Assembly: GCF_002975405.1 (NCBI RefSeq)
Contig: NZ_PCPS01000001.1
Coordinates: 1,240,001-1,304,000, forward strand
Length of the DNA stretch: 64,000 nt
Direction of reading: 5' to 3'
Source: Arthrobacter sp. MYb229
GTDB taxonomy: Bacteria > Actinomycetota > Actinomycetes > Actinomycetales > Micrococcaceae
The notes under the pieces were generated by a model that was given only the letters and a program-made list of their open reading frames with translations, was not told the DNA's origin and did no database searches. Numbering within the stretch: position 1 is the first letter of the stretch; every line of letters starts with the position of its first letter. The translations under genes were made by a program, and so were the position numbers. Positions 39,646 to 55,597 of the stretch are shown here, piece by piece.

Positions 39646-39972
39646 TTACTCCCCTACCAACATTTTCTTAGTCCCCGACAACCAGGTTCGAATGGTTGTG
39701 GCTCCGCTTTCAGCCGTGTCTGCCCGAGCGGCCGCCCACTCGGGTGAGTTGTAGGCGCGCAGGGCAGCATCCTTATCGGCAAACTCAAGATAGTCGGTTC
39801 CCGCAATTTCCGGGTCACCACCATTTTCGTCCGTGTCGGCCAAGTTGATGGTGTAGCTCATCAGTCCTGGCATCTTACGTGCAATTGGTGCGTGGTGCTC
39901 CAGCCACCAGCGGTGCTGTTCTTCCAAAGTCATCTGGTTCCTGAAAAGGATGATAGCGATTTTGACGCTCAT
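39646..39972 (-). CDS. EthD-like small protein
   Basis: 108 residues from ATG 39972 (AGGAAAATC before it); a longer frame into the binding-protein gene is not credible. MSVKIAIILFRNQMTLEEQH, then WWLEHHAPIARKMPGLMSY and EWAAARADTAESG match the EthD/dimeric alpha-beta-barrel family. Such proteins occur beside ether- and carbonyl-degrading enzymes or act as small decarboxylases or isomerases. It is the last gene of the catabolic cluster, 47 bases after the third binding protein, and may act on a pathway intermediate (inference). Confidence 0.82.
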   Translation of the reverse strand: MSVKIAIILFRNQMTLEEQHRWWLEHHAPIARKMPGLMSYTINLADTDENGGDPEIAGTDYLEFADKDAALRAYNSPEWAAARADTAESGATTIRTWLSGTKKMLVGE

Positions 39973-40019
39973 GATTTTCCTAGGGGTCGGTAGTTGATTA
40001 GACAGGTAATACTTGGGAG

Positions 40020-41093
40020 CTAGTTTTGGCAGCCGGTGGACAAGTACTCTTCCAGCGGAGCTGGATCGATCATTGAATCCAGTTCTTGGGTGGTGAACGC
40101 TTGGTCGAACACCTCCGCCTCGACCAGGGCCTCGCTGGCAAGGGACAGCCGCTTTGCCAATCCTGTTTCCGCGTTGGTCAACGACCACGGCGAATCCTCA
40201 CTGAGTTGTTCTTCCAGACCCGGGATAGCGAGGGTATCATAGGTTTGCTGGGCAATTTTAGGAGTGAGACCCAGTTCTTGTTGCAAGGTTTCCGGCCCAA
40301 GTTGTGGTTCCTGACGTGCAACTTCCAAAGAGCGCTGATGCACATCGATGAGTTTGCAGGCCACATCGGGATGCTGTGCGGCGAAGGCCGGGCGGATCGC
40401 CATATTGGTTGCACAGAGCCCTGCACCGCCTTGGTAATCGGCATCCCAATTCACAATCTTGTACCCGGCCTGTTCCAAAGCGATACTCCACGGACCCCAG
40501 ATGAACGTACCGTCGATATCCCCGCTGTCCAGTGCTGTCTGCAGGATGTTGGGATCAACATTGACAATATTCAAGCTCCCGGGCTCAAGTCCCGCTGCTT
40601 GTGCTGCCGTCACTGCCGAGATGTGTGCGCAGGATGCCGTAGGCACCCCAATGGTGTCCAGCTTGTCCAGATCCTCATAGGACTGCACTTCCGAGTTCTC
40701 CGGGACGATAAACCCTTCCTGACTGGAAGAATCCAAAGGGGTGAGGATGTATGTCAGCTCAATCCCTTGTCGCACAGCAAATAACGTGGCCAACCCGGTA
40801 AACACCGAATCGACACTCCCGCTTTCCAAAGCAGCAATAAGTGGCGCACCGCTGTTGAAGGAGATGAACTCCGGGTCCAGCCCTGCTTCCTCGTAGAGTT
40901 CTCGCTCCCGTGCAATATACGCGGGCCAGTAGTTCGAGGATGGTAGTCCAACTCGGATAGGTGTCAACTCTGCGGACTGTGTTCCCTCATCCGTTGATCC
41001 ACCACAACCGGCCAACAAGCTGGTAGCCAGCGTTGCAGCTACCGTCAGCGCAAACCCGCGACGGGTTTTTCGTGCCTTAGAAAGATATTCCAT
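40020..41093 (-). CDS. NitT/TauT-type substrate-binding lipoprotein (third copy)
   Basis: 357 residues. Signal peptide with lipobox LLAGC (Cys 30) and a bilobed periplasmic-binding fold of the SsuA/TauA/NrtA class: IRVGLPSSNYWPAYIARERE, GAPLIAALESGSVDSVFTGL, TIGVPTASCAHISAV. It is related to, but clearly more distant than, the tandem pair at 50720-52827. It lies downstream of the GntR gene. It could feed the same permease with another ligand. Confidence 0.88.
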   Translation of the reverse strand: MEYLSKARKTRRGFALTVAATLATSLLAGCGGSTDEGTQSAELTPIRVGLPSSNYWPAYIARERELYEEAGLDPEFISFNSGAPLIAALESGSVDSVFTGLATLFAVRQGIELTYILTPLDSSSQEGFIVPENSEVQSYEDLDKLDTIGVPTASCAHISAVTAAQAAGLEPGSLNIVNVDPNILQTALDSGDIDGTFIWGPWSIALEQAGYKIVNWDADYQGGAGLCATNMAIRPAFAAQHPDVACKLIDVHQRSLEVARQEPQLGPETLQQELGLTPKIAQQTYDTLAIPGLEEQLSEDSPWSLTNAETGLAKRLSLASEALVEAEVFDQAFTTQELDSMIDPAPLEEYLSTGCQN

Positions 41094-41181
41094 TATTCAA
41101 AGCTCCCTTGAAATGTAGCTTTTAGGTACGACGAAGCGACCGTCGACCATCCGGCCGACAATGAATTGAAAGCGGTATTAG

Positions 41182-41964
41182 TTACTTGTCGCTGCGACTA
41201 AAGGTGTAGGAAATGTTCTGCGGAATCTCCGTGGCGACTTCAGCTTGCAGTTCGAAAGCCTCCGGCAAGAAATGCGTCACCGTGCACTCGAGGAACTCAC
41301 CAGTGTCACTAAATGTCATGCGCTGCAAGCGCGGAACATAGGTCAGTTCGCTGACATCCAGCAGCACACGAATCTCTTCTCGAGGAGGCACCAAGGTTAC
41401 TTGCAGCTGTGCGGTCTTGAAGGTCTTTCCCACTTGCTCCTGCAAAACCTGATACACCGGGTGGTTTTGCAGGTCAGCAATTGTGACCTCGGCACCGATG
41501 TTCCATGGGAGGTAGATCTCCGCCACCGCGACACGCAGTCCGTCCGCACTGTAAATCCGCCGGGCCAAAAGGAACGAGTCGCTGAGCTCCCTGATCCTCT
41601 CGGGCACCTCTTCTTTAGAGTCCAGCCAGGCAAACGCTTGAAGTGAGACGGAGGGACAGATCCCTGCAGCGGTGAACGACTCGACAAACGGTGCCAGCTT
41701 CGTCACGCTTTGGACCGGCCGGTTGCCAAGTACGAAGGTCCCCTTGCCTTGACGGCGAATCAACAGACCCTGTTCCACCAGCTGCTGCACCGCGCGTCGA
41801 ACCGTAGTACGGCTGAGCCCGGATTCTTTGATGATGTCTTCCTCGGTACGAAACCGGTCCCCTGGACTCATTCCGTCGAGTTCGTCACCTAACTGGACGG
41901 CAAGCTGCGCATAGACCGCTACCGGACTATCGCGTTTGATCGCATTCGCCAAGATTACCTTCAC
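41182..41964 (-). CDS. GntR/HutC-family regulator with UTRA domain
   Basis: 260 residues. An N-terminal winged helix (YAQLAVQLGDELDGMSPGDR, EEDIIKESGLSRTTVRRAVQ, LVEQGLLIRRQGKGTFV) precedes a UTRA ligand-binding domain (about 90-240, SFLLARRIYSADGLRVAVAE). UTRA regulators are usually released from DNA by a pathway metabolite. A 17-base motif containing two GTATC half-sites lies 14 bases before its start and recurs in front of the ABC operon, so it probably controls itself and the cluster. Confidence 0.92.
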   Translation of the reverse strand: MKVILANAIKRDSPVAVYAQLAVQLGDELDGMSPGDRFRTEEDIIKESGLSRTTVRRAVQQLVEQGLLIRRQGKGTFVLGNRPVQSVTKLAPFVESFTAAGICPSVSLQAFAWLDSKEEVPERIRELSDSFLLARRIYSADGLRVAVAEIYLPWNIGAEVTIADLQNHPVYQVLQEQVGKTFKTAQLQVTLVPPREEIRVLLDVSELTYVPRLQRMTFSDTGEFLECTVTHFLPEAFELQAEVATEIPQNISYTFSRSDK

Positions 41965-41977
41965 CTCATTTGTCCTA

Positions 41978-41994
41978 CGTATCCAAATTGTATC
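41978..41994. promoter_or_regulatory. Candidate operator of the GntR/UTRA regulator (site 1)
   Basis: CGTATCCAAATTGTATC just upstream of the regulator start. The reverse complement of 53712-53727 is CGTATCTAAATGTATC, the same pattern with one base less. A wider CCAAAT-N8-ATTTGG inverted repeat overlaps this site. Confidence 0.55.
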
Positions 41995-42027
41995 GGATTT
42001 GGTGTAATCGCTTTTTGTGGCGACTAT

Positions 42028-42828
42028 TTAGTCCTCCGTTCTAGCCAAACCGTCGGTGGCCGTCCACCCGCCATCAACCATCAAAGTTGCACCGGTCACG
42101 AACCCACCGGCGTCGGAAGCCAGTAGCAGCACCGGGCCCACGAAGTCCTCTGCGGTGGCCCAGCGGCGAAGCATCGAACGCTGCGTGACAATGTCCACCC
42201 ACTCCTGTTTGGACCGCACATCAGCGGTTAGCGGAGTGGCCACTGGTGACGGGGCCACGGTGTTGACCCGCACACCTTGCGGTCCAAGTTCCACAGCGAG
42301 GGACTTCATCACCGCCACCACTGCGGCTTTGGTTGCCGAATACATGCCCGAGGCGGGTTCCACGACGAACGCGCGGATACTGGAGAAAGCGATGATGCTC
42401 CCCTTACCGCGTTTGGCCATGTTCGCACCGAACGCCCGCGCTAACAGCAGCGTGTACTTCACGTTCATCGCCAACTGAAAATCGATTTCACTTTCACTTT
42501 GGTCCATGAGCTTTTTGCGCACCATCACCGCCGGCATAATCACCAGCACTTCGGCATCACTGTGGCGTTCGGCCAAATCCTCAATGGCCTCGGTGTTCAA
42601 CATATCGCAAGCCTCGGCCGAGCTCTGTTTCCCGTCCTGGGTGATTGCTTCCACCGCGCTCTGGGCGATTTCTTCGGTACGGTCCACGCAGACCACTTGG
42701 GCCCCATGGGCCGCAAAACCGCGGGCGAGGGTAAGTCCAATGCCGCCGCCGGCACCGACCACCACGGCTTTGCGACCGTTCAGTTGGAACAGCTGGCCAA
42801 GGTCCTGTTTTGCTGAAAGAGTTTGCAT
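42028..42828 (-). CDS. Short-chain dehydrogenase/reductase
   Basis: 266 residues, NAD(P)-dependent oxidoreductase. Cofactor motif GAGGGIGLTLARGFA (about residues 25-40), the substitute NNAG-like segment VLVIMPAVMVRKKL, active site Ser in FSSIRAFVVEP, and YSATK with catalytic Tyr and Lys. The C-terminal GFVTGATLMVDGGW is standard. Asp in VCVDRTEE suggests NAD preference. Its ATG overlaps the stop of the carboxyltransferase gene by one base, so it belongs to the pathway operon and likely oxidises a hydroxy intermediate. Confidence 0.93.
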   Translation of the reverse strand: MQTLSAKQDLGQLFQLNGRKAVVVGAGGGIGLTLARGFAAHGAQVVCVDRTEEIAQSAVEAITQDGKQSSAEACDMLNTEAIEDLAERHSDAEVLVIMPAVMVRKKLMDQSESEIDFQLAMNVKYTLLLARAFGANMAKRGKGSIIAFSSIRAFVVEPASGMYSATKAAVVAVMKSLAVELGPQGVRVNTVAPSPVATPLTADVRSKQEWVDIVTQRSMLRRWATAEDFVGPVLLLASDAGGFVTGATLMVDGGWTATDGLARTED

Positions 42829-44318
42829 CAGTGCTCCTGAATTTTCGTGGTTTTATTGTAATTGATGCCAAGCGGCTTGGACTTGTGGCTATAACTGAAT
42901 TGGCTAATCGAGGGGTTGTTGACCACCCCGGCCACCAATAAGGAGAAGGCATTCTTGGGGGTGGAGCGGTAGCCGTCCCAATCCAGCTTGTTCCAGCTGG
43001 AAAGGATCGGTTTGGAGTAGAACAGCGCCAACGCCAAGGCCTCGTCATCGGCAAAGGGGCCGTTTTTGGCACGGAAGGACTCCACCATGGGTTCAAGGAT
43101 TTCGCCGGGTCGCTGGGTGATGGCTTCCTCACCGCGAGTGACTTTGTCCAGCACGTTGGGATCTACCGGCCCCGGTGTCTGCCCGTAGTAGCCCAACAGG
43201 TAACTGCGGATCTCGTCGGGAACTACCGAGTAGCGGTCCCCAGTCACCACGTTGAGCACCGATTGGATCCCCACATACTGTGCCATGGGGCTGACCAGCA
43301 ACGGATAACCCAGTTCGGCCCGGACCCGACCCACTTCTTCCAAAACTTCCGGAAGCCGGTGAACCATCCCCTGGTCGGTAAGTTGCTGGCGTAGATTGCT
43401 GAGCATCCCTCCGGGGACTTGATGGACCAGCATCTCCGGGTCATCAAGTATCGGGTGGGAGGTAGGCATGCCGCGGCGACGAGCCAGTCCCACAAAGTAG
43501 GACTCCATTTCCTTTAGTGCTTGCTTATCGATATCCACCTGGAATCCGCGACTTTCAAGCTCTTCAATGAGGAACTCGTGTGACGGGTGCGAGGTGCCCC
43601 AGGCAAAGGGTGGAACCGCGCCGTGGAATACGTCGGGTCCGGCATCCCCTAGGTCCATCGCGGCCCGGTGAACATCCGGAGCGGTACCCGTCGAAGCGTG
43701 GCAATGCAGTTGCAGGGTCTGCCCCTTGAGGACCTGGCGCATCCGTAGCAGCAAGCTGCTGGCACGCTGCGCGGTGAGCAACCCGCTGGGGTCCTTCAAA
43801 GAAATGGCGTCCACCCCCATCTCCACCAGTTCCTTAGTCTTCTCAATGAAATGCTCATCGGTATGGTATGGACTAATAGTGAAGGTCACCGACCCGATAA
43901 TGTACAGCCCCAACTCCTTGGCCACCTGCGCGCTGAACACTAGGTTGCGCATGTCGTTGAGCGGGTCGAAGAGCATCACCGAATCGATCCCAGCCCGAGC
44001 AAAGGTCTGCAAGGTCAGGTGAGCTACGTCGTCGGGGTATTGTGTCCAGCGGAAGACGCTCTGCCCACGGGAGTTGAAGTTCAGCCGGGTGTTTGGCATC
44101 AGCTGACGCAGGATTCGGATTCTTTCGAACGGATCTTCCTGAAGATACATGATGCTGGTATCGATGGCCGCCCCACCGGTGACATCGACAACGTCGAATC
44201 CGGCGCGTTCCATGGTGCTGGCGATCGGCACGATTTCGTGGGTCGACAACCGTGTTGCCCAGAGGCACTGGGCTCCATCACGGATCGTAATGTCTTCAAG
44301 CCTGATAATTTTGGCCAT
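42828..44318 (-). CDS. Biotin-dependent carboxyltransferase subunit (transcarboxylase 5S / pyruvate carboxylase B type)
   Basis: 496 residues. HMGL-like TIM barrel (about 5-270) plus the PYC_OADA domain (about 290-460). D14 in TIRDGAQCLWATR, K175 in ISLKDPSGLL (the carbamylated metal-ligand Lys of this family) and H205/H207 in LQLHCHAST are present. The family signature RDAHQSL is changed to RDGAQCL, and LQMLLRGQN to LNFNSRGQS, so the keto-acid pocket differs from pyruvate enzymes. There is no biotin domain; the separate carrier at 45709 is the partner. It would move CO2 between carboxybiotin and an unknown keto substrate. Confidence 0.88.
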   Translation of the reverse strand: MAKIIRLEDITIRDGAQCLWATRLSTHEIVPIASTMERAGFDVVDVTGGAAIDTSIMYLQEDPFERIRILRQLMPNTRLNFNSRGQSVFRWTQYPDDVAHLTLQTFARAGIDSVMLFDPLNDMRNLVFSAQVAKELGLYIIGSVTFTISPYHTDEHFIEKTKELVEMGVDAISLKDPSGLLTAQRASSLLLRMRQVLKGQTLQLHCHASTGTAPDVHRAAMDLGDAGPDVFHGAVPPFAWGTSHPSHEFLIEELESRGFQVDIDKQALKEMESYFVGLARRRGMPTSHPILDDPEMLVHQVPGGMLSNLRQQLTDQGMVHRLPEVLEEVGRVRAELGYPLLVSPMAQYVGIQSVLNVVTGDRYSVVPDEIRSYLLGYYGQTPGPVDPNVLDKVTRGEEAITQRPGEILEPMVESFRAKNGPFADDEALALALFYSKPILSSWNKLDWDGYRSTPKNAFSLLVAGVVNNPSISQFSYSHKSKPLGINYNKTTKIQEH

Positions 44319-44326
44319 GTTCTTTC

Positions 44327-45712
44327 CTACCTTCCGGCTGTTTCGAGAACGGGCATCAGTTCTTCGCGTTGGTGCTCCAGCCAGCGGGTCGAAATGTCAT
44401 TGTGCTGGAAGTCTTCGTGGCGCAGCACGCGCTGCAAGAACTCGATATTTGTGGTGACTCCGTCAATTTTCATTTCTTCCAGGGCGGCAATTGCCCTGGA
44501 GATCGCACTGGGCCGGTCGCGGTCATGCACGATCAGTTTGGCGATCATGGAGTCATAGAAGGGGGAAATAAGCGTGCCGACTTGGCAGTGGGTATCGATT
44601 CGCACGCCCGGGCCCCCGGGCAGGGTTAATGCGGTGATCCGCCCGGGCATCGGCTGGAAGTTCCGATCCGGATCCTCGGCGTTGATCCTTAGTTCAATCG
44701 CCGCCCCGCGCACTTGCACCTGCTGTTGGGTAAAGGACAGCTCATTGGCTGGATCAGCGACCCACAATTGTTCACGCACCAGGTCGAGTCCCGATAACAT
44801 CTCGGTGACCGGGTGCTCGACCTGGATGCGGGTGTTCATTTCAATGAAATGGTGCGTATTGCGCTCTAAGTCGACCACAAATTCGACGGTTCCTGCACCG
44901 ACATAGTGCAGTTTGGATACCAGTCGCACCGCGTCGTCCTCGATCCGGCTGCGCAGCTCATCCGAGATCGCGTTGGCCGGGCCTTCTTCCAACACCTTCT
45001 GGTAGCGGCGTTGCACGGTGCAGTCACGGGTTCCCACATGCATCACATTTCCGTGGTGGTCGCCCAAGATCTGCACCTCGACGTGCCGGATACGCTCTAG
45101 GAACTGCTCGGCGAGGATCACATCCGAGCCGAAGGACGCCAACGCTTCACGGCGGGCATCTTCCAATTCGGCCTTCACCTGATTTGGTTCGCGCACGATG
45201 CGCATTCCCCGGCCGCCACCGCCGGCGGCAGCTTTGAGCAGTACCGGATAACCTGCGCTCTGCCCCAGTGCGTGCACATCGGCTTCGCTTACATTGTCAT
45301 CACCACTGCCAGCAACCACCGGGACACCGGCAGTGGTAGCAATCCCACGACCGTAGACCTTGTCACCAAGTTTGGAAATGATCTGTTCGCTGGGTCCGAT
45401 GAAGATAATGTTTTCTTCCTGGCACATTCGAGCAAACTGCGCGTTTTCGGCCAGGAATCCATAACCCGGATGGATAGCATCAGCCCCGGTGGACAACGCA
45501 ATCTGCACGATGACATCCCCACGCAAATAACTTTGACCGGGATGTGAGGGCCCCACTTTAACAGCCTTATCGGCGAGCCGCACATGCAATAGGTCCGCAT
45601 CGGCTTCCGAATATATGGCCACCGTTTCCAGCCCAAGCTGACGGCAAGCCCGGATGATTCGCACAGCGATCTCACCACGGTTTGCCACAAGTACTCTCTT
45701 CATCGAGCTCAC
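44327..45712 (-). CDS. accC: Biotin carboxylase subunit
   Basis: 461 residues, ATP-grasp enzyme that carboxylates biotin on the carrier protein. RVLVANRGEIAVRIIRACRQ, GYGFLAENAQFARMC, KAAAGGGGRGMRIV, the ATP/Mg site EMNTRIQVEHPVTEM and the C-terminal RINAEDPDRNFQPMPGRITA are intact. It stops before any biotin domain, like AccC. The first codons overlap the carrier stop by four bases. Part of the carrier-carboxylase-carboxyltransferase run. The symbol names the family only; this need not be the acetyl-CoA carboxylase of fatty-acid synthesis. Confidence 0.93.
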   Translation of the reverse strand: MSSMKRVLVANRGEIAVRIIRACRQLGLETVAIYSEADADLLHVRLADKAVKVGPSHPGQSYLRGDVIVQIALSTGADAIHPGYGFLAENAQFARMCQEENIIFIGPSEQIISKLGDKVYGRGIATTAGVPVVAGSGDDNVSEADVHALGQSAGYPVLLKAAAGGGGRGMRIVREPNQVKAELEDARREALASFGSDVILAEQFLERIRHVEVQILGDHHGNVMHVGTRDCTVQRRYQKVLEEGPANAISDELRSRIEDDAVRLVSKLHYVGAGTVEFVVDLERNTHHFIEMNTRIQVEHPVTEMLSGLDLVREQLWVADPANELSFTQQQVQVRGAAIELRINAEDPDRNFQPMPGRITALTLPGGPGVRIDTHCQVGTLISPFYDSMIAKLIVHDRDRPSAISRAIAALEEMKIDGVTTNIEFLQRVLRHEDFQHNDISTRWLEHQREELMPVLETAGR

Positions 45713-46236
45713 TTCGATTCCTCATCGGCTGTGATTTCAAAGAGCACCTGGCCATGCTCGACAAGTTGCTCATTGTTCCCGCGGATGGCGCTCACAGTGC
45801 CGGAGACCGGCGAGGAAAGTCGGTTCATCAGTTTCATGACCTCCACGATGGCCACGACGTCTCCTTCATTGACGTGCTGGCCCACAACCACGAACGGTTC
45901 AGCATCCGGTGTGGGTTGCCGGTAAAATACCCCGGTCATTGGCGCCTCAATAACTGTCACGCCTTCTGCCGCTGGGGCTGTGGCTGCCACAGCGTTCTGG
46001 GCTTCCGACTCTGCGGCAGCCGCTGGTTCTGAAACTTCAACCGGTGCCACCGCTGATATTGACTGAACGGGGGTGCCGGGGGCAACATCACTTTTCCCGT
46101 TGGAGCTGATTTCCTTGGAAACTTTCAAATTCATCCCGCCCAGGGTGATATCTACCTGACCACCGTGCGGCGTAGCATCGATGATGCGTAGGATGGCTTC
46201 AACTTCTTGGAAAGTCATGGATTCTGTTGAGTTCAT
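45709..46236 (-). CDS. accB: Biotin carboxyl carrier protein
   Basis: 175 residues from ATG 46236, with AAGGGA upstream; a TTG six codons earlier is possible. N-terminal helix and strand like AccB (TFQEVEAILRIIDATPHGGQ), an Ala/Glu-rich linker, and a biotinyl domain with the attachment site VEVMKLMN (Lys 135). The canonical site is EAMKM; EVMKLMN is typical of AccB-like carriers. It would carry CO2 between the carboxylase and the 5S-type carboxyltransferase encoded next to it. Confidence 0.93.
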   Translation of the reverse strand: MNSTESMTFQEVEAILRIIDATPHGGQVDITLGGMNLKVSKEISSNGKSDVAPGTPVQSISAVAPVEVSEPAAAAESEAQNAVAATAPAAEGVTVIEAPMTGVFYRQPTPDAEPFVVVGQHVNEGDVVAIVEVMKLMNRLSSPVSGTVSAIRGNNEQLVEHGQVLFEITADEESK

Positions 46237-46269
46237 TGTGGCTTGTCCCTTCAAAGTAGAGTGCTGTAG

Positions 46270-48336: not shown

Positions 48337-48364
48337 TTGGCTACCTTTCAATGGATTTAATACT

Positions 48365-49501
48365 TCACACGGTCAACAGCACTGTGGAATGGCTGGACAT
48401 GGTCCCGCCAATACCGTGGGCCAGCGCGGTCTTTGCCGGAACCTGGCGTTGACCTGCCCGGCCGCGCAGCTGCGCAACCGACTCCAATATCGTGTAAATC
48501 CCGAACATCCCGGGGTGTGTATAGGCCAGGCCACCACCACTGGTATTCATGGGTAGTTTTCCGCCCGGTGAGGTGTGTCCGTCGGCGATGAACCGCCCAG
48601 CTTGGCCGCGATCACAGAATCCCAAATCCTCGAGAATGAGAATGGGGTTGATGGTGAAGGCATCGTAAATTTGCACGGTGTTCACCTCATTGGGACCGAA
48701 CCCAGCCTGTTCGAAGGCGGATGCACCGGTGAGTCTGGCCCCGGTACTGGTCAAATCCGGCATGGCCATCATGCCATCGTGTTCGGTCACGTCGGCCACC
48801 GCCGCAATGGTGACGGTCTGTGCCAGCCCCAATGATTTGGCTTTCTGCTGGCTCATCACCACTAGGGCACCGGCCCCATCGGTAATGAGACAGCAGTCAA
48901 GGGTGTGGAAGGGTTCTGCGACGGCCGGTGAGGCGAGGATCTCCTCATGGCTGAGCAGCTCGCGACGCTGAGCTGCGGGGTTCAGGGCCCCCCAGCGGCT
49001 GGCGGCAATGGCTACCGCGCTGAGATATTCACGGGGGACTTCCCATTGGTGCAGGTATCGCGAAGCCATCAAGGCATAGGAGGTGATCGGGTAGCGCGGG
49101 TTCGCCATGGCTTCTAGGGGCGGGGCAGCGGCGACCATAGGACGGGTCCCGGTGGCCTTCAGCGCGGTACGTTGGGTGCTGCCATAGGCAATCAACGCCA
49201 CCTCGATTTGTCCGGCGTTAATGGCTGCTACCGCATGTTGGAGATGAGACAGGTTGGAGGCACCGCCGTGGACCGTTGAATCCAAATACCGTGGTGTGAT
49301 CCCCAAATATTCGGCGAGCGCAAGGGTGGGCAGTGCTACCTGCGCGGTTGCCGTGAAGATCGCGTCGATATCACGCAGCTGGATTCCGGCATCCCTTGTG
49401 GCTTCGATACAGGCTTGGGCCATCACATCCATCGTGTCGCGGTGTTCGTCCGCACGGGTCGGGGCGACCCCGGTGCCAGCAATAACTACTGAAGTGCTCA
49501 A
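48365..49501 (-). CDS. Thiolase-like protein (SCP-x/Ltp type) lacking the catalytic Cys
   Basis: 378 residues with the double thiolase fold: VVIAGTGVAPTRADEHRDTM, VAAINAGQIEVALIAYGSTQ, YDAFTINPILILEDLGF and NTSGGGLAYTHPGMFGIY. The usual nucleophile Cys position reads VHGGASNLSHL (Ser 82), and the C-terminal CxG is GGTMSSH, so both reactive Cys are missing. This matches Ltp-type thiolases that work with a DUF35 partner in retro-aldol cleavage of CoA esters. The partner is the upstream gene, overlapping by four bases. I infer C-C bond cleavage or formation without a Cys intermediate. Confidence 0.85.
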   Translation of the reverse strand: MSTSVVIAGTGVAPTRADEHRDTMDVMAQACIEATRDAGIQLRDIDAIFTATAQVALPTLALAEYLGITPRYLDSTVHGGASNLSHLQHAVAAINAGQIEVALIAYGSTQRTALKATGTRPMVAAAPPLEAMANPRYPITSYALMASRYLHQWEVPREYLSAVAIAASRWGALNPAAQRRELLSHEEILASPAVAEPFHTLDCCLITDGAGALVVMSQQKAKSLGLAQTVTIAAVADVTEHDGMMAMPDLTSTGARLTGASAFEQAGFGPNEVNTVQIYDAFTINPILILEDLGFCDRGQAGRFIADGHTSPGGKLPMNTSGGGLAYTHPGMFGIYTILESVAQLRGRAGQRQVPAKTALAHGIGGTMSSHSTVLLTV

Positions 49502-49893
49502 TTTTCCACCAGCTTAATACTTGGAATCAGTTGTCCCTGGTCCACGGCGTCCATACCGCTGACCGTGCATTCAGCCAAGGTCAGTTCCACTGGCTGCCCG
49601 ATCTGTGCTTGTTGGTTTCCCGGGCCCACCAGTTGACCGTAAAACCGGGTGCCGGTGTTCAGTACTTCGAATTCGCACAGGGCGACGGAACCTTCGTTGG
49701 AGTGGCGACTGATTGAGTAGATGGTTCCTTGGGCCCCACCGACCGGGGTCCAGCCCAGTGCGTCGGTGCCGCAGGCGGGGCAGGCCGCCCGCGGTGGCAT
49801 GAAGACCGCAGCGCATTCTTCACAACGCGGGAAGACCAGTTCCCCTGCGGCGGCACGTCCAAGGTAGTGGCGTAGGTGTTTGTTCATGTTCAT
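49498..49893 (-). CDS. DUF35/OB-fold zinc-ribbon protein
   Basis: 131 residues: a zinc ribbon with Cys 24, 27, 38 and 41 (FPRCEECAAVF, ACPACGTD) followed by an OB-fold (about 50-125: GTIYSISRHSNEGSVALCEF, TRFYGQLVGPGNQQAQIGQP). DUF35 proteins form complexes with thiolase-like enzymes and shuttle or position CoA. It sits immediately before the Cys-less thiolase, as in steroid-degradation Ltp pairs and archaeal HMG-CoA synthase complexes. Confidence 0.9.
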   Translation of the reverse strand: MNMNKHLRHYLGRAAAGELVFPRCEECAAVFMPPRAACPACGTDALGWTPVGGAQGTIYSISRHSNEGSVALCEFEVLNTGTRFYGQLVGPGNQQAQIGQPVELTLAECTVSGMDAVDQGQLIPSIKLVEN

Positions 49894-49895
49894 GG

Positions 49896-50720
49896 TTAGC
49901 CCCGTCCCAGCCAGTGCACAAGCTTGGACTCAACGAGGGCCAACGTGAGGTTCATCAGCAAACCGATGATGCCAATCAGGATGATTCCGATAAACACCGT
50001 TGGGATTTGAAAGAGCAGGGCGGCATTGTTGATCATGTAGCCAAGTCCCTTCTGCGCACCAACAAGTTCTGCGGCCACCACCACCGCCCAGGACAGGGCC
50101 AGCGCGACTTTCAGGCCTGCGAAGATGCTGGGTAGTGCGGCGGGAAATATCACATGGAAGAATTCTCGATACTTTCCAATGCCCAAGGTGGCCGCCGCGC
50201 GGCGATAGGCGATGGGTACACCGCTGGCTCCCGCTTGGGCGTTAACCACCGCATAGTTGAAGGCGGTCACGGTTATCAGGACAATCTTTCCGGTCTCGCC
50301 CAAACCGAAGTAGAGCACCACCATGGGAATGAAAGCGATCGGTGGGATCGGGCGGATGAAGGCCATGATCGGTGACAACGCTGCGGAGATCACCCGATTG
50401 GAGCCAGCCGCCAATCCGATGATGACACCAATCAAGGAGCCAATCGCGAATCCAACCAGGGTGCGGGTCAGGCTCGCGCCAATGTGCTCCCAGAGGGAAC
50501 GACCCTGGTAACCATCTTGGAGTAGCACCCCGAATTGTTGGAGTAACGCTTGCGGCGACGGTAAGTAGTTCGGGCCAACGAGCCCGGTATTGGTGACCAA
50601 GAACCAGGTCAGCAACAGCGCGACGATGGTCGACACCGAGATCACCATTGAGGGAACGGACCGCAGTTTCTTGGCACGAGTGCCAACCACCTGGGGTTTA
50701 CCAAAGGATGTGAGTGTCAT
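49896..50720 (-). CDS. NitT/TauT-type ABC transporter permease
   Basis: 274 residues, about six helices, SsuC/NrtB-like. Segments LVGPNYLPSPQALLQQFGVL, the docking loop YRRAAATLGIGKYREFFHVI and LSWAVVVAAELVGAQKGLGY are typical. It shares one base with the stop of the binding-protein gene before it (TAATG), so the two are coupled. It probably transports an organic anion delivered by the two or three binding lipoproteins. Confidence 0.92.
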   Translation of the reverse strand: MTLTSFGKPQVVGTRAKKLRSVPSMVISVSTIVALLLTWFLVTNTGLVGPNYLPSPQALLQQFGVLLQDGYQGRSLWEHIGASLTRTLVGFAIGSLIGVIIGLAAGSNRVISAALSPIMAFIRPIPPIAFIPMVVLYFGLGETGKIVLITVTAFNYAVVNAQAGASGVPIAYRRAAATLGIGKYREFFHVIFPAALPSIFAGLKVALALSWAVVVAAELVGAQKGLGYMINNAALLFQIPTVFIGIILIGIIGLLMNLTLALVESKLVHWLGRG

Positions 50721-51766
50721 TATTTTGCACCGACTTCAGCTGCTTCAATGTACTGGGGGTCAATGGCCGTGCGTAGTTGTACTTCGCTGAGCGCTTCTTC
50801 AATGACACCCATCTCTGCGAAGGTGTCAGAAGCCAGTTTGATTTGGGCGTAAAGCCCTTCCTCGCCGACCATTGCATAACGGTTATTCTCATCCAGCTGC
50901 TCTGCCAAGGTTGGTTGGACTGACATGTAGCGGTCGGCGACCTTGTCGCCGACTGACGCGGAAACGCTCAGGTGTTTTTGTAGCATCTGGGAGCCCAACT
51001 CGGGTTCGGCACGCAGGTCCTCCCACGCCCGGCTCAAGGCATGCAGCATCTTGGTAGGCACCTCGGGGTGCTCGTCTAAGAACTTGGCCCGTCCAGCGTG
51101 CATTTCGGGGCAGGTTCCGCCGCCGGGAACCCAATCCTGATCGAAGCCGATAATTTTGTTTCCACGTTCTTCGAGGTCAAAGAGGTACGGCGACCATGAG
51201 AACCCACCTGCTACGGAACCACCGGCGAAGGCGTTGGCATATAAGTTGGGAGTGATATCCACGGTGTCAACCTCACTGAGGTCCACACCGACGGATTGTG
51301 CCGCATAGTACGCCGATACCTGAACGCAGGTTCCGGTGGCCACACCGATGGGTCCGCTGTTGACCAGATCTTCGAGACTGTCGATGCCACTTTCTGCGCT
51401 GGCGACAAAGCCTTCCGCGGCCGAGGCATCGCCCTCCAGTGAGATGTAGCGCAGGTCGATGCCCTTGCCCAGCGCAAAGACCGAAGCCAGTCCGGTGGTC
51501 ACCAAGTCCAAGCTTTCACTTTCTAGCGCCGCCAGCATGGGTGCGCCGGTTTGGAAGACCTGCATCTGCGGGTCTAGCCCTTCGTCGGTGAAGTAGCCTC
51601 GTTCCTCGGCTACGTAGAACGCTAGGTATGATCCCTGGGCGCGTCCCCAATTGAAGGTGATCGTGTCCTCATCGTCGGCGGCACCGCTCGATGCTGCCGT
51701 GCAAGAAGCCAGTAGGCCTATGCACGCCATCCCGAGGACGGCTTTGGTTAGAATCTTCCTATTCAT
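50720..51766 (-). CDS. NitT/TauT-type substrate-binding lipoprotein (tandem copy B)
   Basis: 348 residues, lipobox LLASC (Cys 22). FNWGRAQGSYLAFYVAEERG, TGAPMLAALESESLDLVTTG and TGTCVQVSAYYAAQSVG repeat almost position by position in copy A at 51763-52827, showing a tandem duplication. It ends at the permease start. A conserved PGGGTCPEMHAGRAKF segment with one Cys lies in the second lobe, and another Cys in TGTC; possibly a disulfide. Confidence 0.9.
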   Translation of the reverse strand: MNRKILTKAVLGMACIGLLASCTAASSGAADDEDTITFNWGRAQGSYLAFYVAEERGYFTDEGLDPQMQVFQTGAPMLAALESESLDLVTTGLASVFALGKGIDLRYISLEGDASAAEGFVASAESGIDSLEDLVNSGPIGVATGTCVQVSAYYAAQSVGVDLSEVDTVDITPNLYANAFAGGSVAGGFSWSPYLFDLEERGNKIIGFDQDWVPGGGTCPEMHAGRAKFLDEHPEVPTKMLHALSRAWEDLRAEPELGSQMLQKHLSVSASVGDKVADRYMSVQPTLAEQLDENNRYAMVGEEGLYAQIKLASDTFAEMGVIEEALSEVQLRTAIDPQYIEAAEVGAK

Positions 51767-52827
51767 TGTCTTGCTCCTTGCACTTCGAGTACGTACTGCT
51801 CGTCCACGGCAGCATCAAGTTCTTCGATCGTTAGCTGTTCCTCGATGACGCCAAGGGCCGCGAAGGCATCAGAAGCCAAGCCAAGTTGTTTGACCAGCCC
51901 TTCGGTGCCAACCATTGAGTAACGATTTGTTGGATCTGTTAGCTGCTCACTGGTGGGCTGGGCGGCAACGTATCGGGCCACGACTTCGCTGGCTATTTCC
52001 TCGGATATTGATAACCGGGAGGCCAGTGCCGCGACGGCCACCGACTCATCGTCCCGAATGTCCTGCCAGGCACGCTTCACCGCACGAACAATTTTGCTAC
52101 CGACCTCGGGGTGCTCTTCGAGGAAGGCACTGCGTCCGATATGCGTTTCGGGGCAGCTACCACCGCCGGGAACCCATTCTTCGTCCCAGCCGATGATGTT
52201 GTGGCCGTTGCGTTCAAGTTCCACCAGGTAGGGGGACCAGGAGAACCCGGCGTCGATGGATTCGCTGGTCAGTGCGTTGGCGTATAGGTTCGGTGCAATA
52301 TCCACCGCGTTGAGGTCGCTGTAGTCCTTGCCGAGGGATTCCATGGCGTAGTAGGCCGAGACTTGGGCGCAGGTACCGGTCGGCACTGCAACAGGCGCGC
52401 CCCCGGCGATATCTTCTAGCGTTGCGACCGCTCCGCCTTCGCGGGCCACCAGGCCTTCCACCGCTGCGGCATCACCTTCAAAGGTGATGAACCGGATGTC
52501 GATTCCTTTACCCAAGGCGAAGACCGTTGCCAGTCCCGTCGTTGCAATGTCGAGACTGTCGCTTTCCAAGGCGGCCAATAGTGGCGCGCCAGTGGTAAAA
52601 CTCTGAAATGACGGATCCAATCCCTCATCTTGGAAGTAACCCTGGTCCTGCGCTACATACAACGCGAGGTAGGACGCAGCCGGAACGCCCCAGTCAAAGC
52701 TCAGAAGGTCTTCGTCGCCGGCGCCGGTCGGTGCCCCAGTTGTGCAGGCGGTCACTCCCAGCAGCGCCGAGCAGCCTACCGCCGTAGTAGCCATGGCTCT
52801 GGAATAATGTCTTGTAGGTCGTTTCAT
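51763..52827 (-). CDS. NitT/TauT-type substrate-binding lipoprotein (tandem copy A)
   Basis: 354 residues, lipobox GVTAC (Cys 28). FDWGVPAASYLALYVAQDQG, TGAPLLAALESDSLDIATTG, TGTCAQVSAYYAMESLG and PGGGSCPETHIGRSAF parallel copy B. Its stop overlaps the copy B start by four bases. Having two divergent copies in one operon suggests related ligands of one transport system. Confidence 0.9.
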   Translation of the reverse strand: MKRPTRHYSRAMATTAVGCSALLGVTACTTGAPTGAGDEDLLSFDWGVPAASYLALYVAQDQGYFQDEGLDPSFQSFTTGAPLLAALESDSLDIATTGLATVFALGKGIDIRFITFEGDAAAVEGLVAREGGAVATLEDIAGGAPVAVPTGTCAQVSAYYAMESLGKDYSDLNAVDIAPNLYANALTSESIDAGFSWSPYLVELERNGHNIIGWDEEWVPGGGSCPETHIGRSAFLEEHPEVGSKIVRAVKRAWQDIRDDESVAVAALASRLSISEEIASEVVARYVAAQPTSEQLTDPTNRYSMVGTEGLVKQLGLASDAFAALGVIEEQLTIEELDAAVDEQYVLEVQGARQ

Positions 52828-52853
52828 CGTGCAGTCTCCTCAGGGTCGGCAGG

Positions 52854-53654
52854 TCAAGCGGCGGCCCGAGCGGCCATAATTTCTTGCTGAACGGTCTCCA
52901 AGACTTGATGTTCCAGACCGACAAAGTTCTCTGACGTCAGAAATTCCAGATGTCGTGGCTTAGGCTCATTGACGGCAACTTCCAGACGAACCCGGCCCGG
53001 GCGGGAACTCATCACCACAACACGATCAGAGATAAAGATCCCTTCGCTCACGTCGTGAGTGATGAACAGGATGGTCGGTTTGAACTCTTGCCACAGTTCC
53101 AATAGCAATTGCTGCATCAGAATGCGGGTTTGGTAATCCAAGGCACCGAATGGTTCATCCATCAGCAGCACTTCCGGGCTTCCGATCAGCGCCCGGGCAA
53201 TCTGCACGCGTTGTTGCATGCCACCAGAGATCTGGTAGGGGTAGTGTTTTTCGAATTTCCTGAGTCCCACCGCACGAAGGAACGTGTTGGCCTTCTCTTC
53301 ATACTCTGCCCGTGGCATTCCCTGGCTCTTGACGCCGAACACGACATTTTCATAAACATTCATCCATGGGAACAACGCCGCGTGTTGGAATACCACGGCG
53401 CGATCCGGGCCTGGTGCGAAGATTTCATGTCCATCCAACAGCAGCGAACCAGTGCTGGGTTTGTCGAACCCGGCGACCATGTTCAGGGCAGTGGACTTTC
53501 CGCATCCGGTGGGACCGACGATGGAAACGATTTCTGACTGTTGTATTCCCAACTCGAGCTTCGAGATCGCGGTAATTTGCTCGCTACCCCTAGCTGGAGA
53601 GTCAAAGACTCGCGATACATCGGAGAAGTGAATCTTGTATTGAGACTGCGACAT
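52854..53654 (-). CDS. NitT/TauT-type ABC transporter ATP-binding protein
   Basis: 266 residues from ATG 53654, which has GAAGGAG upstream; the longer frame to 53741 lacks a site. Walker A GPTGCGKSTALN, Q-loop QHAALFPWMNVYEN, signature ISGGMQQRVQIARAL (first residue I rather than L), Walker B VLLMDEPFGALD and ITHDVSEG. SsuB/TauB/NrtD-like. It is the first gene of the long minus-strand operon, facing the aconitase X genes. Confidence 0.93.
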   Translation of the reverse strand: MSQSQYKIHFSDVSRVFDSPARGSEQITAISKLELGIQQSEIVSIVGPTGCGKSTALNMVAGFDKPSTGSLLLDGHEIFAPGPDRAVVFQHAALFPWMNVYENVVFGVKSQGMPRAEYEEKANTFLRAVGLRKFEKHYPYQISGGMQQRVQIARALIGSPEVLLMDEPFGALDYQTRILMQQLLLELWQEFKPTILFITHDVSEGIFISDRVVVMSSRPGRVRLEVAVNEPKPRHLEFLTSENFVGLEHQVLETVQQEIMAARAAA

Positions 53655-53711
53655 TGTGGCTCCTTCGGCCCTAACTCGACAACACGTTTCTTCGTACTGC
53701 TGACTGAGAAA

Positions 53712-53727
53712 GATACATTTAGATACG
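53712..53727. promoter_or_regulatory. Candidate operator of the GntR/UTRA regulator (site 2)
   Basis: GATACATTTAGATACG in the divergent region 58 bases upstream of the ATPase start. It is the reverse-complement counterpart of the site at 41978-41994 (CGTATCyAAAt-GTATC). It is placed to control the ABC operon. Confidence 0.55.
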
Positions 53728-53852
53728 TCCTCAATCCTCACTAAAAGTGAATCTAGTCACTCATAAGCATTTACGCAAGGGGTTACCGGAAAAATGACTA
53801 TTTCCCCGAGAAGACGGCGCCATTTGTCATGCTGAACATCAGAAACTTTTCC

Positions 53853-53881
53853 TTGCCCAATCGCCAAGCACCTAGTATAAG
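53853..53881 (+). promoter_or_regulatory. Candidate promoter of the aconitase X genes
   Basis: TTGCCC (53853-53858) and TATAAG (53876-53881) with a 17-base spacer, about 40 bases before the start codon. Confidence 0.5.
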
Positions 53882-53883
53882 TA

Positions 53884-53900
53884 TTAAGAACGTCTCTTAA
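53884..53900. promoter_or_regulatory. Palindrome next to the aconitase X promoter
   Basis: TTAAGA-ACGTC-TCTTAA, a perfect 6-base inverted repeat with a 5-base spacer, immediately after the -10 candidate. A possible repressor site. Confidence 0.4.
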
Positions 53901-53921
53901 CGTATACATGAAAGGTTCACC

Positions 53922-55151
53922 ATGCAGCTGAGCAAAGTTGAGCAGGAGATGCTCGATCAAGGCGGAGCGGTCGCGCAGGCGCTTCGCCAGCAGATTGCGG
54001 TCGGCGATTTTTTTGACGCACCGCATATGGTCGAAATCGCCAACGCCCACTTCACAGGGGATCCGGAGGTTTTCGGCGAAGCCGGGTTGGAGTATTTGGA
54101 GGGGTTGACGCTAAGTGGCGTTTCCTGTCGGGTGCCCACTACCCGCAATGCAACATGCGTCGACTTGGAGCAGCTGGAGTCATTCAATCAGCTAAGCCAT
54201 CTCAGCGAGCAGGAACTTGAGGTACGCAGAACACTCACCAAATTGGGAGTTATGGTCGTCAATACCTGCATTGGATACCAGACGGTGTACCAACCGCAGT
54301 TGGGCGAACATGTGGCCTGGGGAGACACGGGCACCGTCGCCTACGCAAATTCGGTGTTGGGGGCACGCTCAAATTACGAAGCGGGCCCCTCCTCCCTCCT
54401 TGCCGGAATCACCGGGCGCACCCCAGCATATGGTTTCCATCTCGACAAGAACCGGGCGGCTCAGTATGTCGTTACCGTGACTGCCCCGCTAACGGATCCC
54501 GCAGATTGGGGAGCGGTCGGAGCGATGATCGGCTCTCGCTATCGCGGGTATGACAATGTGGTGGCCATTGTGCTGGAGAACGGCTCCTCACCGAACAGTG
54601 ACGACCTGAAATACCTTTCTGCCTCAATTTCCAGCTACGGCTCCATGGCCATGTTCCATGTTGTGGGCATTACCCCGGAAGCATTCAGCCTTGAACAGGC
54701 AACACAAGGCCAAGATCCACGGGAGACTTCAGAAATTACCGCGAAGGACTTAGCCGAATTCCTAGGATGGGATGACACCGACATCCCAGATGTCGTGGTC
54801 TTCACTGCACCGCAACTCTCACTATTCGAGGTGGCGCGTCTTTCCTCGTTGTTGGAGGGGCGTGAGGTGCTGGACGGGACCACAGTTATTGCCACCACCA
54901 GCCAGATGGTGTACCAGGAAGCTGAACGTCAGGGATACATCGGGGTCCTCCTTCAAGCCGGAGTACGGGTAATCAAAGATACCTGCTGGTATCTTATGGA
55001 TCCAGCCGGCCAACTCAGGGATTTTGGCTGGCAGACATTGATGACCAGCTCTTCCAAATTGGCAAACATTGTCAAGGCTCACGGCTACACCCCCACCGTG
55101 CTACCGGTAGCCGAATGTATCGTCCGATCAACCCGAAAGGTTACCCCATGA
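53922..55151 (+). CDS. Aconitase X catalytic (large) subunit, DUF521
   Basis: 409 residues. MQLSKVEQEMLDQGGAVAQA, PTTRNATCVDLEQ, NTCIGYQTVYQPQLGEHVAW, GDTGTVAYANSVLGARSNYE and GPSSLLAGITGRTPAYGFHL match the aconitase X large subunit. Known members dehydrate hydroxyproline isomers or phosphomevalonate (families as described for bacteria and archaea); the substrate here is not deducible. The conserved Cys residues (for example in NATC and NTC) may bind iron-sulfur or metal. The stop overlaps the small-subunit ATG by four bases. Confidence 0.9.
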   Translation: MQLSKVEQEMLDQGGAVAQALRQQIAVGDFFDAPHMVEIANAHFTGDPEVFGEAGLEYLEGLTLSGVSCRVPTTRNATCVDLEQLESFNQLSHLSEQELEVRRTLTKLGVMVVNTCIGYQTVYQPQLGEHVAWGDTGTVAYANSVLGARSNYEAGPSSLLAGITGRTPAYGFHLDKNRAAQYVVTVTAPLTDPADWGAVGAMIGSRYRGYDNVVAIVLENGSSPNSDDLKYLSASISSYGSMAMFHVVGITPEAFSLEQATQGQDPRETSEITAKDLAEFLGWDDTDIPDVVVFTAPQLSLFEVARLSSLLEGREVLDGTTVIATTSQMVYQEAERQGYIGVLLQAGVRVIKDTCWYLMDPAGQLRDFGWQTLMTSSSKLANIVKAHGYTPTVLPVAECIVRSTRKVTP

Positions 55152-55597
55152 CCAACCACCAGACCTCCGGACTTCAAATCAAGGCTTCCCCCAGCGAATT
55201 CATCCTCAAACACGCCACCGGCGAAAAAATCATTGCTAGGGCGCTGGTCAGCACCGCACCATTCAGTGCGCGATATGACCTGAACCGGGTCGAAGGAACC
55301 ATTAGCCGCAAAGAGCACCCTTTGCGCGGACATCAGATTGCCGGACAAATCTTTGTGGCCCCTGGCGTACAAGGCGGAGTTGCCGGTGGATGGGCGCTAC
55401 TTGATATGGGAAGCCGGCAGGTGGGATTTGCTGGCCTGATCCTAGGACGAACCAACCCGGTCATGGTCCAGGGAGCAGTCACCGCAGGAATACCCATTGC
55501 TGCGGGAATATCCGAGGCGTTCTTCGCGACAGTAAAGACTGGCGACTTAATCGAATTGTGCCCAGACGAAAAGACGGTGAGAATCCTCGAAGGCTAA
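55148..55597 (+). CDS. Aconitase X swivel (small) subunit, DUF126
   Basis: 149 residues from ATG 55148, overlapping the large subunit stop (ATGA). PFSARYDLNRVEGTISRKEH, GQIFVAPGVQGGVAGGWALL and GIPIAAGISEAFFATVKTGD show the swivel-domain pattern with the flexible active-site Ser/Gly loop. Split subunits are the usual archaeal and some bacterial arrangement. It completes the two-gene operon divergent from the ABC genes. Confidence 0.9.
   Translation: MTNHQTSGLQIKASPSEFILKHATGEKIIARALVSTAPFSARYDLNRVEGTISRKEHPLRGHQIAGQIFVAPGVQGGVAGGWALLDMGSRQVGFAGLILGRTNPVMVQGAVTAGIPIAAGISEAFFATVKTGDLIELCPDEKTVRILEG

Follow-up and report, generated by a model that had tools for sequence, protein, structure and literature searches.

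A rare, conserved gene cluster with an unusual aconitase X in Arthrobacter sp. MYb229, and a tentative pathway for an imported organic acid

Which compound is broken down by the sixteen genes at positions 39646-55597 of the DNA stretch of Arthrobacter sp. MYb229 analysed here (64,000 nucleotides, hereafter the window; contig NZ_PCPS01000001.1, positions 1,240,001 to 1,304,000), and do these genes belong together at all? A preliminary description, made from the letters alone, had taken them for an uncharacterised gene set by which an imported acid is catabolised, and on this point our results agree with it: the cluster is a real, conserved catabolic unit, uncharacterised as far as we searched, with one clearly unusual enzyme subclass, that of its aconitase X (AcnX). 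Our best model, offered tentatively, is that of a rare, apparently transferred catabolic unit that would handle an imported, probably dianionic organic acid by carboxylation, reduction, isomerisation, activation and cleavage.

Recurrence and setting of the gene set

A scan of species genomes with the carboxyltransferase (CT) of the window returned five loci, four of which, in two Arthrobacter genomes, Leucobacter chromiisoli and Aquisalimonas lutea (three actinobacteria and one gammaproteobacterium), have a CT 67-74% identical to the query. The fifth, in Boseongicola (L008), has a CT 28% identical and was rejected as a cluster member. All 14 protein families, AcnX included, co-occur in these four genomes as they do in the window, and because the whole set is kept in 5/5 genomes of two phyla its parts probably work together. 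The same gene set had been proposed for a search in other actinobacteria, and it was found in three, as well as in Aquisalimonas; chance juxtaposition, which the preliminary description had named as the outcome that would undo it, is contradicted by this recurrence in four further genomes. Order and strand do vary among the five clusters, as the genes for the ATP-binding cassette (ABC) importer, the solute-binding proteins (SBPs), the GntR regulator, the EthD protein and AcnX shift place, while the block from DUF35 through the thiolase-fold protein (THL), ligase, biotin carboxyl carrier protein (BCCP) and biotin carboxylase (BC) to CT has a constant order in 5/5 clusters, followed by the short-chain dehydrogenase/reductase (SDR) in 4/5. 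That several unrelated short pathways lie here side by side, with no common substrate, would fit the varying place and strand of AcnX, the ABC genes and EthD, and also the eight other loci that have an AcnX of the same subclass and no carboxylase, ligase or thiolase-fold gene; the joint presence of 14/14 families in five genomes of two phyla, however, makes it the least probable of the explanations that we weighed.

Pfam and NCBIfam scans of the window proteins returned the sixteen genes and the families given before:

39646..39972, minus strand: EthD-family dimeric alpha/beta-barrel protein, 108 aa (PF07110, TIGR02118)
40020..41093, minus strand: third NMT1-type solute-binding protein, SBP3 (PF09084)
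41182..41964, minus strand: GntR/UTRA regulator (PF00392, PF07702), in 5/5 clusters
42028..42828, minus strand: SDR with Y163/K167 (PF13561), in 5/5 clusters
42828..44318, minus strand: CT of PycB/OadA/HpeB fold (PF00682, PF02436; PRK09282 above cut-off; tree)
44327..45712, minus strand: BC subunit (PF00289/PF02786/PF02785; PRK08591 above cut-off)
45709..46254, minus strand: BCCP, presumed biotinyl Lys141 in EVMKL (PF00364)
46270..48351, minus strand: ADP-forming acyl-CoA ligase, SHTG with His260 (PF13380, PF13607, PF13549)
48365..49501, minus strand: THL with Gly80 and Y279DAF, proposed retro-aldolase (PF22691; PRK06158 above cut-off; alignments)
49498..49893, minus strand: DUF35/ChsH2-type zinc-ribbon OB-fold partner of THL (PF12172)
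49896..50720, minus strand: ABC importer permease, TauC/SsuC type (PF00528)
50720..51766, minus strand: solute-binding protein 2, NMT1 type (PF09084)
51763..52827, minus strand: solute-binding protein 1, NMT1 type (PF09084)
52854..53741, minus strand: ABC importer ATPase (PF00005)
53889..53910, no strand: candidate regulator half-sites (weak) in the ATPase/AcnX divergent intergenic region, AACGTCTC and AACGTATA
53922..55151, plus strand: AcnX large subunit, AcnXL, GDTG/APQLS subclass (PF04412, 350.5 bits)
55115..55597, plus strand: AcnX small (swivel) subunit, AcnXS, with Gly88 and Arg53 (PF01989, 62.3 bits)

Of the sixteen genes, fourteen occupy the minus strand, between 53741 and 39646, and the AcnX pair is divergent on the plus strand. 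The tight packing described earlier is borne out by the minus-strand junctions, 9/13 of which measure 15 bases or less, five of these nine being overlaps of 1-4 bases. Some starts call for comment: that of EthD, as read from the sequence, is most likely at 39972 (108 aa) as opposed to the start at 40188 of a 180-aa open reading frame (ORF); that of AcnXS is probably base 55148, residue 12 of its ORF, giving a 4-base overlap with AcnXL; and that of the ATPase may be later than listed, four homologs aligning only from residues 12-36.

The cluster appears to be both rare and scattered. A protein search with CT in 58 genomes (its own included, with 17 others of the same genus) found no ortholog outside its own genome, and the 17 same-genus matches are 28-31% identical and lie in frames of 1171-1243 residues, the size of pyruvate carboxylase. 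Likewise, a search with a CT alignment found no further ortholog in 396 genomes of Actinomycetota and 398 of Pseudomonadota (the window's own genome being among the former and Aquisalimonas among the latter), which are samples of larger groups from which the two Arthrobacter and Leucobacter were evidently not drawn; the closest protein there, 43% identical, lies in a different locus (G857). These alignment searches scored at most three candidate places per genome, and in loci lacking annotation the ORFs scanned were those chosen by length and codon-position GC. Such a rare and scattered distribution apparently reflects horizontal transfer. The cluster lies between ffh and amt, which are 20 kb apart in the window (37818-57883); in 16/17 same-genus genomes the distance between the matched parts of the two genes ranges from about 0.5 to 43 kb, the 17th having them on different contigs, and the interval looks like an insertion hotspot. 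A characterised operon of identical composition, the other outcome named beforehand as refuting, did not emerge from a literature search, which found no described operon of this kind in a coverage without most subscription journals, so that an earlier description is possible.

The aconitase X subclass

The two-subunit AcnX was recognised correctly from the start, both Pfam domains scoring above their cut-offs, and the large subunit is the sole AcnX match in the genome. We mapped its residues on solved AcnX structures, aligning AcnXS to the small subunit of TkAcnX, with residue roles taken from PMC8184944. Fold, two Fe-S Cys (116 and 355, as in type IIa), the active-site Lys and one Asn (N76) are shared with characterised AcnX. 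In contrast to these enzymes, the Ser base is replaced by Gly88, Glu292 by Asp135, Tyr534 by Ile383, Asp203 by Thr45 and Trp35/Leu27 by Arg53, and the amine contacts are lost. Arg53 of AcnXS stands at a substrate-contact position, which suggests a second anionic group on the substrate.

Neither of the two activities characterised for AcnX fits this protein. Hydroxyprolines, listed earlier among the acids to try, are disfavoured, as the protein lacks the cis-3-hydroxyproline-binding residues and the model of the cis-3-hydroxy-L-proline dehydratase gives 204.9 versus 700 bits; the positions compared with that enzyme are G88-V89-A90 (through TkAcnX), T45, D135 and I383. Type IIb has three Fe-S Cys, Ser62 and, in TkAcnX, the phosphate contacts G48-V49-S50, N53 and N79 (PMC8184944). 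A mevalonate substrate was rejected, since the window protein has two Cys and not three, and Gly88 for Ser62; of the phosphate contacts, G48-V49-S50 correspond to G46-D47-P48, N53 is lost and N79 is kept as N76. Types IIc-IIf, according to the same paper, have the landmark residues of neither known activity and await characterisation (PMC8184944); further papers deal with AcnX (PMC5144071, PMC10040528).

Nine of 25 AcnX sequences share these changes (in one, L087, the SARYD stretch was not read) and sixteen have canonical motifs (one of them, L058, ending before the last two). The nine large subunits form one clade in the tree (100/99). Four further loci carry the signature, namely L176 and L177 with 5/5 motifs, L178 with 4/5 (GDTG unmatched) and L168 with all four of the motifs sought there, bringing the subclass to 13/29 sequences: the five cluster members and eight other loci. 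Genes for CT, BC, the ligase and a thiolase-fold protein are absent from the stretches of these eight. Transporter genes of di- or tricarboxylate type (TctC/TctA, MatC/CitMHS or TRAP) occur in 5/8 (L061, L062, L087, L168, L176), a GntR/UTRA gene in 3/8 (L087, L168, L176), an aldehyde dehydrogenase in 3/8 (L060, L061, L087) and 2-hydroxy-acid enzymes in 3/8 (glycolate-oxidase genes by annotation in L060, Ldh_2 in L061, GlcD-like in L062). Two of the clusters have a 2-hydroxy-acid enzyme as well: in that of Leucobacter a D-lactate dehydrogenase, scoring above cut-off, adjoins AcnX, and in one of Arthrobacter such a gene follows BioY. The window cluster has none. By association only, these neighbours point to small di- or tricarboxylates. 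Whatever the pathway, the lack of the catalytic Ser makes this AcnX subclass a defined and testable gap in what is known of the aconitase superfamily.

Carboxylation, cleavage and the proposed pathway

The genes for CT, BC and BCCP are adjacent in 5/5 clusters, and BC and BCCP are ordinary by curated models. The features of a biotin-dependent carboxylase of 2-oxo acids or ketones are all present: a BC, Lys141 of BCCP, and in CT the residues K175, H205 and H207, which are invariant in 5/5 and which we take to be the metal-site Lys and HxH motif. A carboxyltransferase it is, then, as described before, but the label "5S-type" was loose, for CT passes the PycB-type model PRK09282 (438 against a cut-off of 402 bits) and fails the 5S model PRK12330 (324 against 827). 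In a tree of 24 rows (midpoint root; three long branches, L040, L042 and L013; frame length and biotin tail served to assign the row types) the five cluster proteins group together (100/100) and share a 100/100 branch with eight homologs, found in L039-L043, in G857 and in two genomes of the same family as the window, 13/24 rows in all. Rows like pyruvate carboxylase, PycB and OadA are separated from the cluster CT by a 100/100 branch, so that it is placed neither with pyruvate carboxylases nor with oxaloacetate decarboxylases. Plain pyruvate carboxylase was rejected also because a frame of this type, 1224 residues long (G000:C21), exists separately in the genome and the tree splits CT from it.

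CT groups with plasmid homologs of ketone-carboxylase type, a family predicted to add CO2 beside a ketone. One plasmid locus, L042, resembles the hydroxyphenylethanone (Hpe) operon by gene content; the tree labels HpeB_Rpyr (L042) and AcvE_Syan (L043) should be taken as our working names, given by gene content and not by a match to proteins of GD02 or SYK-6. The ketone carboxylated by HpeCBA is 4-phospho-acetovanillone, an aryl methyl ketone, and XccBCA is a homolog of HpeCBA (PMC9618137). Beta-keto-acid cleavage enzymes are encoded in the stretches of two CT neighbours, about 3 kb from CT in L043 and about 7 kb in G857, and in L040 a divergent citrate-synthase-domain "citryl-CoA lyase" lies about 4 kb away. 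The latter locus, on a Sulfitobacter dubius plasmid (L040:7319-13470), has its three-part carboxylase near this lyase, a TRAP transporter and a GntR gene, and perhaps encodes a related carboxylate-and-cleave pathway. BioY biotin transporter genes were seen after AcnXS in Arthrobacter HY1533 (L072:11932-12609), which would fit a biotin-dependent pathway, and downstream of the CT operon of plasmid locus L041.

The pair formed by a Cys-less thiolase and DUF35 was also read correctly before. Thiolytic splitting is unlikely, however: our alignments show Gly in place of the nucleophilic Cys in 5/5 clusters (Gly80 in the window), and the Tyr motif of retro-aldolases is kept. THL has this motif as YDAF in 5/5 and its gene adjoins that of DUF35 in 5/5, which is the Tyr (YDxF/Y) and partner pattern of Ltp2/Sal-type retro-aldolases; the DUF35 protein has Cys 24, 27, 38 and 41 as two CxxC pairs. 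Best solved matches of THL are 4u4e ("Thiolase"), benzoylsuccinyl-CoA thiolase, and 9myr and 6ok1, which are named lipid-transfer proteins and are presumably Sal and Ltp2. In the Ltp2/ChsH2 and Sal/Shy aldolases a thiolase fold is likewise joined by a DUF35 partner and the YD-motif Tyr is present; Sal has Gly at the nucleophile position, said to exclude thiolysis, and the motif YDCY, that of Ltp2 being Y294DHF (PMC12329534). The cluster THL differs from both in its YDAF and in belonging to the PRK06158 group, and its DUF35 is unfused to a MaoC hydratase. The catalytic acid of these aldolases, a second Tyr (Tyr344) in Ltp2 and the Cys of YDCY in Sal, is not recognisable in the cluster THL: Ala replaces the Cys of YDCY, and the residue before a conserved HP is Tyr in 2/5 clusters and Phe in 3/5. 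Gly for Cys is found also in 5/5 PRK06158-type plasmid relatives. Retro-aldol cleavage is the best-supported reaction class predicted for THL/DUF35.

This cleavage enzyme bears on a route resembling those of Hpe, Acv and Xcc, in which the SDR would oxidise a secondary alcohol to a methyl ketone, the biotin enzyme would turn this into a beta-keto acid and the ligase into a beta-ketoacyl-CoA, and the thiolase pair would release acetyl-CoA, with AcnX preparing the substrate. These systems (HpeHICBADEF and Acv/Xcc) likewise carboxylate with a biotin enzyme of three proteins, and the CT of a presumed Hpe-like locus falls on the cluster's side of the tree; the tree position of CT, the beta-keto-acid cleavage enzymes near two of its neighbours and the pairing, in L042, of CT/BC/BCCP with an OB-fold protein and a thiolase all speak for such a route. 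However, the L042 thiolase retains its Cys (ENACASG), the cluster ligase is ADP-forming and not AMP-forming, and the cluster adds AcnX, SDR and EthD, of which AcnX has no clear place in the route. Neither the two-component kinase and phosphatase of those pathways nor any aromatic gene is among the sixteen window genes (no search aimed at the kinase and phosphatase was made in the four remaining clusters), and we regard the route as rather unlikely.

The ligase has the CoA-binding, flavodoxin-like and ATP-grasp domains of the ADP-forming family and His260 in SHTG, which we assume to be the phospho-His; the two solved structures that it matches best are CoA ligases for 3-hydroxypropionate and 4-hydroxybutyrate, both hydroxy acids. 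HMG-CoA (3-hydroxy-3-methylglutaryl-CoA) and citramalyl-CoA lyases split a tertiary beta-hydroxyacyl-CoA to acetyl-CoA and a ketone or keto acid. A retro-aldol step could come first, AcnX hydrating a branched enoate to a tertiary beta-hydroxy acid that the ligase would activate and THL/DUF35 split to acetyl-CoA and a ketone or keto acid, carboxylated afterwards. Besides the hydroxy-acid substrates of the best ligase matches, MaoC or enoyl-CoA hydratase genes in 5/5 THL/DUF35 plasmid stretches examined would suit this order, as would AcnX type IIb, which forms a 3-methyl-2-enoate by removing water from mevalonate 5-phosphate (PMC8184944), whereas the route calls for the opposite direction. It leaves SDR and EthD without a role, however, and in the AcnX subclass both the catalytic Ser and some of the phosphate contacts for mevalonate are missing, so that we consider it unlikely. 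The five plasmid stretches (L082-L086), where Cys-less PRK06158-type thiolase/DUF35 pairs share the DNA with these hydratase genes, likely encode uncharacterised retro-aldol pathways, and the cluster supplies a genetic context for such unexplained pairs.

We return to the model preferred here, carboxylation through to cleavage. The three-protein biotin enzyme would carboxylate a 2-oxo acid, R-CH2-CO-COO-, at the carbon beside its ketone, this acid being the imported compound or derived from the substrate; the SDR, proposed as a beta-keto acid reductase, would reduce the product to a 3-substituted malate; the AcnX subclass would shift the hydroxyl (or remove water) to give a 2-substituted malate; the ligase would form its CoA thioester; and THL/DUF35 would cleave this by retro-aldol reaction, releasing acetyl-CoA and a 2-oxo acid that is shorter by one carbon. 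The preliminary description had implied activation followed by carboxylation, an order that we changed: carboxylation may well precede CoA activation, as it does in the Hpe pathway, because carboxylases of this fold act beside a ketone carbonyl (PMC9618137).

The model uses CT/BC/BCCP, SDR, AcnX, ligase and THL/DUF35 once each, and the comparison made so far is of the presence of candidate enzymes. In its favour speak the tree position of CT, the retro-aldolase features of THL, the SDR in 5/5 clusters, the second anionic group suggested by Arg53 together with the carboxylate-type transporters near other AcnX of the subclass, and the hydroxy acids used by the best solved matches of the ligase. 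To our knowledge, its chemical logic is so far known from autotrophs. The two-step reverse tricarboxylic acid (TCA) segment of Aquificaceae proceeds through 2-oxoglutarate carboxylase, oxalosuccinate reductase, aconitase, citryl-CoA synthetase and citryl-CoA lyase, with pyruvate carboxylase and succinyl-CoA synthetase regarded as the respective ancestors of the carboxylase and the synthetase (PMC5441870). The order of chemistry is that of our model, and these source families are the wider families of the cluster CT and ligase; the cluster differs in having SDR, the AcnX subclass and THL/DUF35 where the segment has oxalosuccinate reductase, aconitase and citryl-CoA lyase, and in ABC import. A bolder reading, which we hold as doubtful, is that of a horizontally mobile CO2-fixing segment in heterotrophs, half of the reverse TCA cycle rebuilt for another 2-oxo acid, with an AcnX using a new catalytic base; equally, it could be described as leucine-type 2-oxo acid elongation in reverse, with other families for reduction, isomerisation and cleavage. 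Should the preferred model prove right, heterotrophs would possess a mobile set of genes for shortening a 2-oxo acid at the expense of CO2 and ATP.

Several points weigh against the preferred model, whose substrate and enzyme activities are predicted from sequence. Arg84 of CT, which we take to be the pyruvate-binding Arg of pyruvate carboxylase, was dropped as proof of a 2-oxo acid since the Hpe-like protein has it too, and it is no evidence for such a substrate; moreover, a link to a 2-oxo acid emerged for 0/8 CT-tree neighbours, and the single neighbour whose class is known uses aryl ketones. Lacking the Ser base of aconitases, the AcnX subclass would need another base for isomerase activity, and aldehyde dehydrogenase is as frequent at its other loci as 2-hydroxy-acid dehydrogenase (3 each of 8), which also fits a simple dehydratase; the transporter association at these loci stands without a control set of canonical AcnX genes. 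Retro-aldolase activity is only predicted for the PRK06158 group, the top solved match, 4u4e, being named simply "Thiolase". Finally, EthD has no place in the scheme, and a route costing two ATP and reductant is odd for catabolism.

Import, regulation and remaining genes

The importer does not decide between the pathway readings. The permease gives 188 bits with the TauC model, below the cut-off of 342, and the best solved relatives of the SBPs are taurine- and sulfonate-binding proteins. These matches would agree with an organosulfonate substrate, taken up by a TauA/SsuA-like importer and cleaved by AcnX as a sulfo-lyase, with export of sulfite or sulfate, and so would a TauE/SafE gene within one cluster (L074:2515-3396) and a SulP gene within another (L007:11881-13719; 402 bits against a sulfate-permease cut-off of 380). 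Nonetheless, the SBP similarity is weak, exporter genes occur in only 2/5 clusters and not in the window set, Pfam and NCBIfam scans found no known desulfonating enzyme among the window's genes (elsewhere none was searched for), and a possible cargo of SulP proteins is bicarbonate (191 bits with the BicA model, short of its cut-off); the explanation is therefore improbable. Both Arthrobacter clusters have a major facilitator superfamily gene beside EthD (L004:13768-15177, L074:8700-10091) and no SBP3-type binding protein, as if one importer replaced another.

On the regulatory side, an exact GATACGTT is present in the AcnX-upstream region of three other clusters, a weak shared half-site with weak statistics; in the Arthrobacter clusters (L070, L072) GATACGTT-like half-sites stand upstream of AcnXL, in tandem at 10-base spacing by eye, and are candidate GntR sites. 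Promoter and terminator scans gave no excess over shuffled sequences.

The EthD protein is present in 5/5 clusters. Its AlphaFold2 model (predicted local distance difference test, pLDDT, 81) has as best PDB match the EthD protein 2ftr, and the fold search returned the EthD family and 4-methylmuconolactone methylisomerase; a plasmid search with EthD gave one weak match, and a weak EthD-like piece (35% over 57 residues) lies at the edge of L087. Adjoining the cluster, at 56513-57706, is a 397-aa ORF of coding-like composition without a Pfam match.

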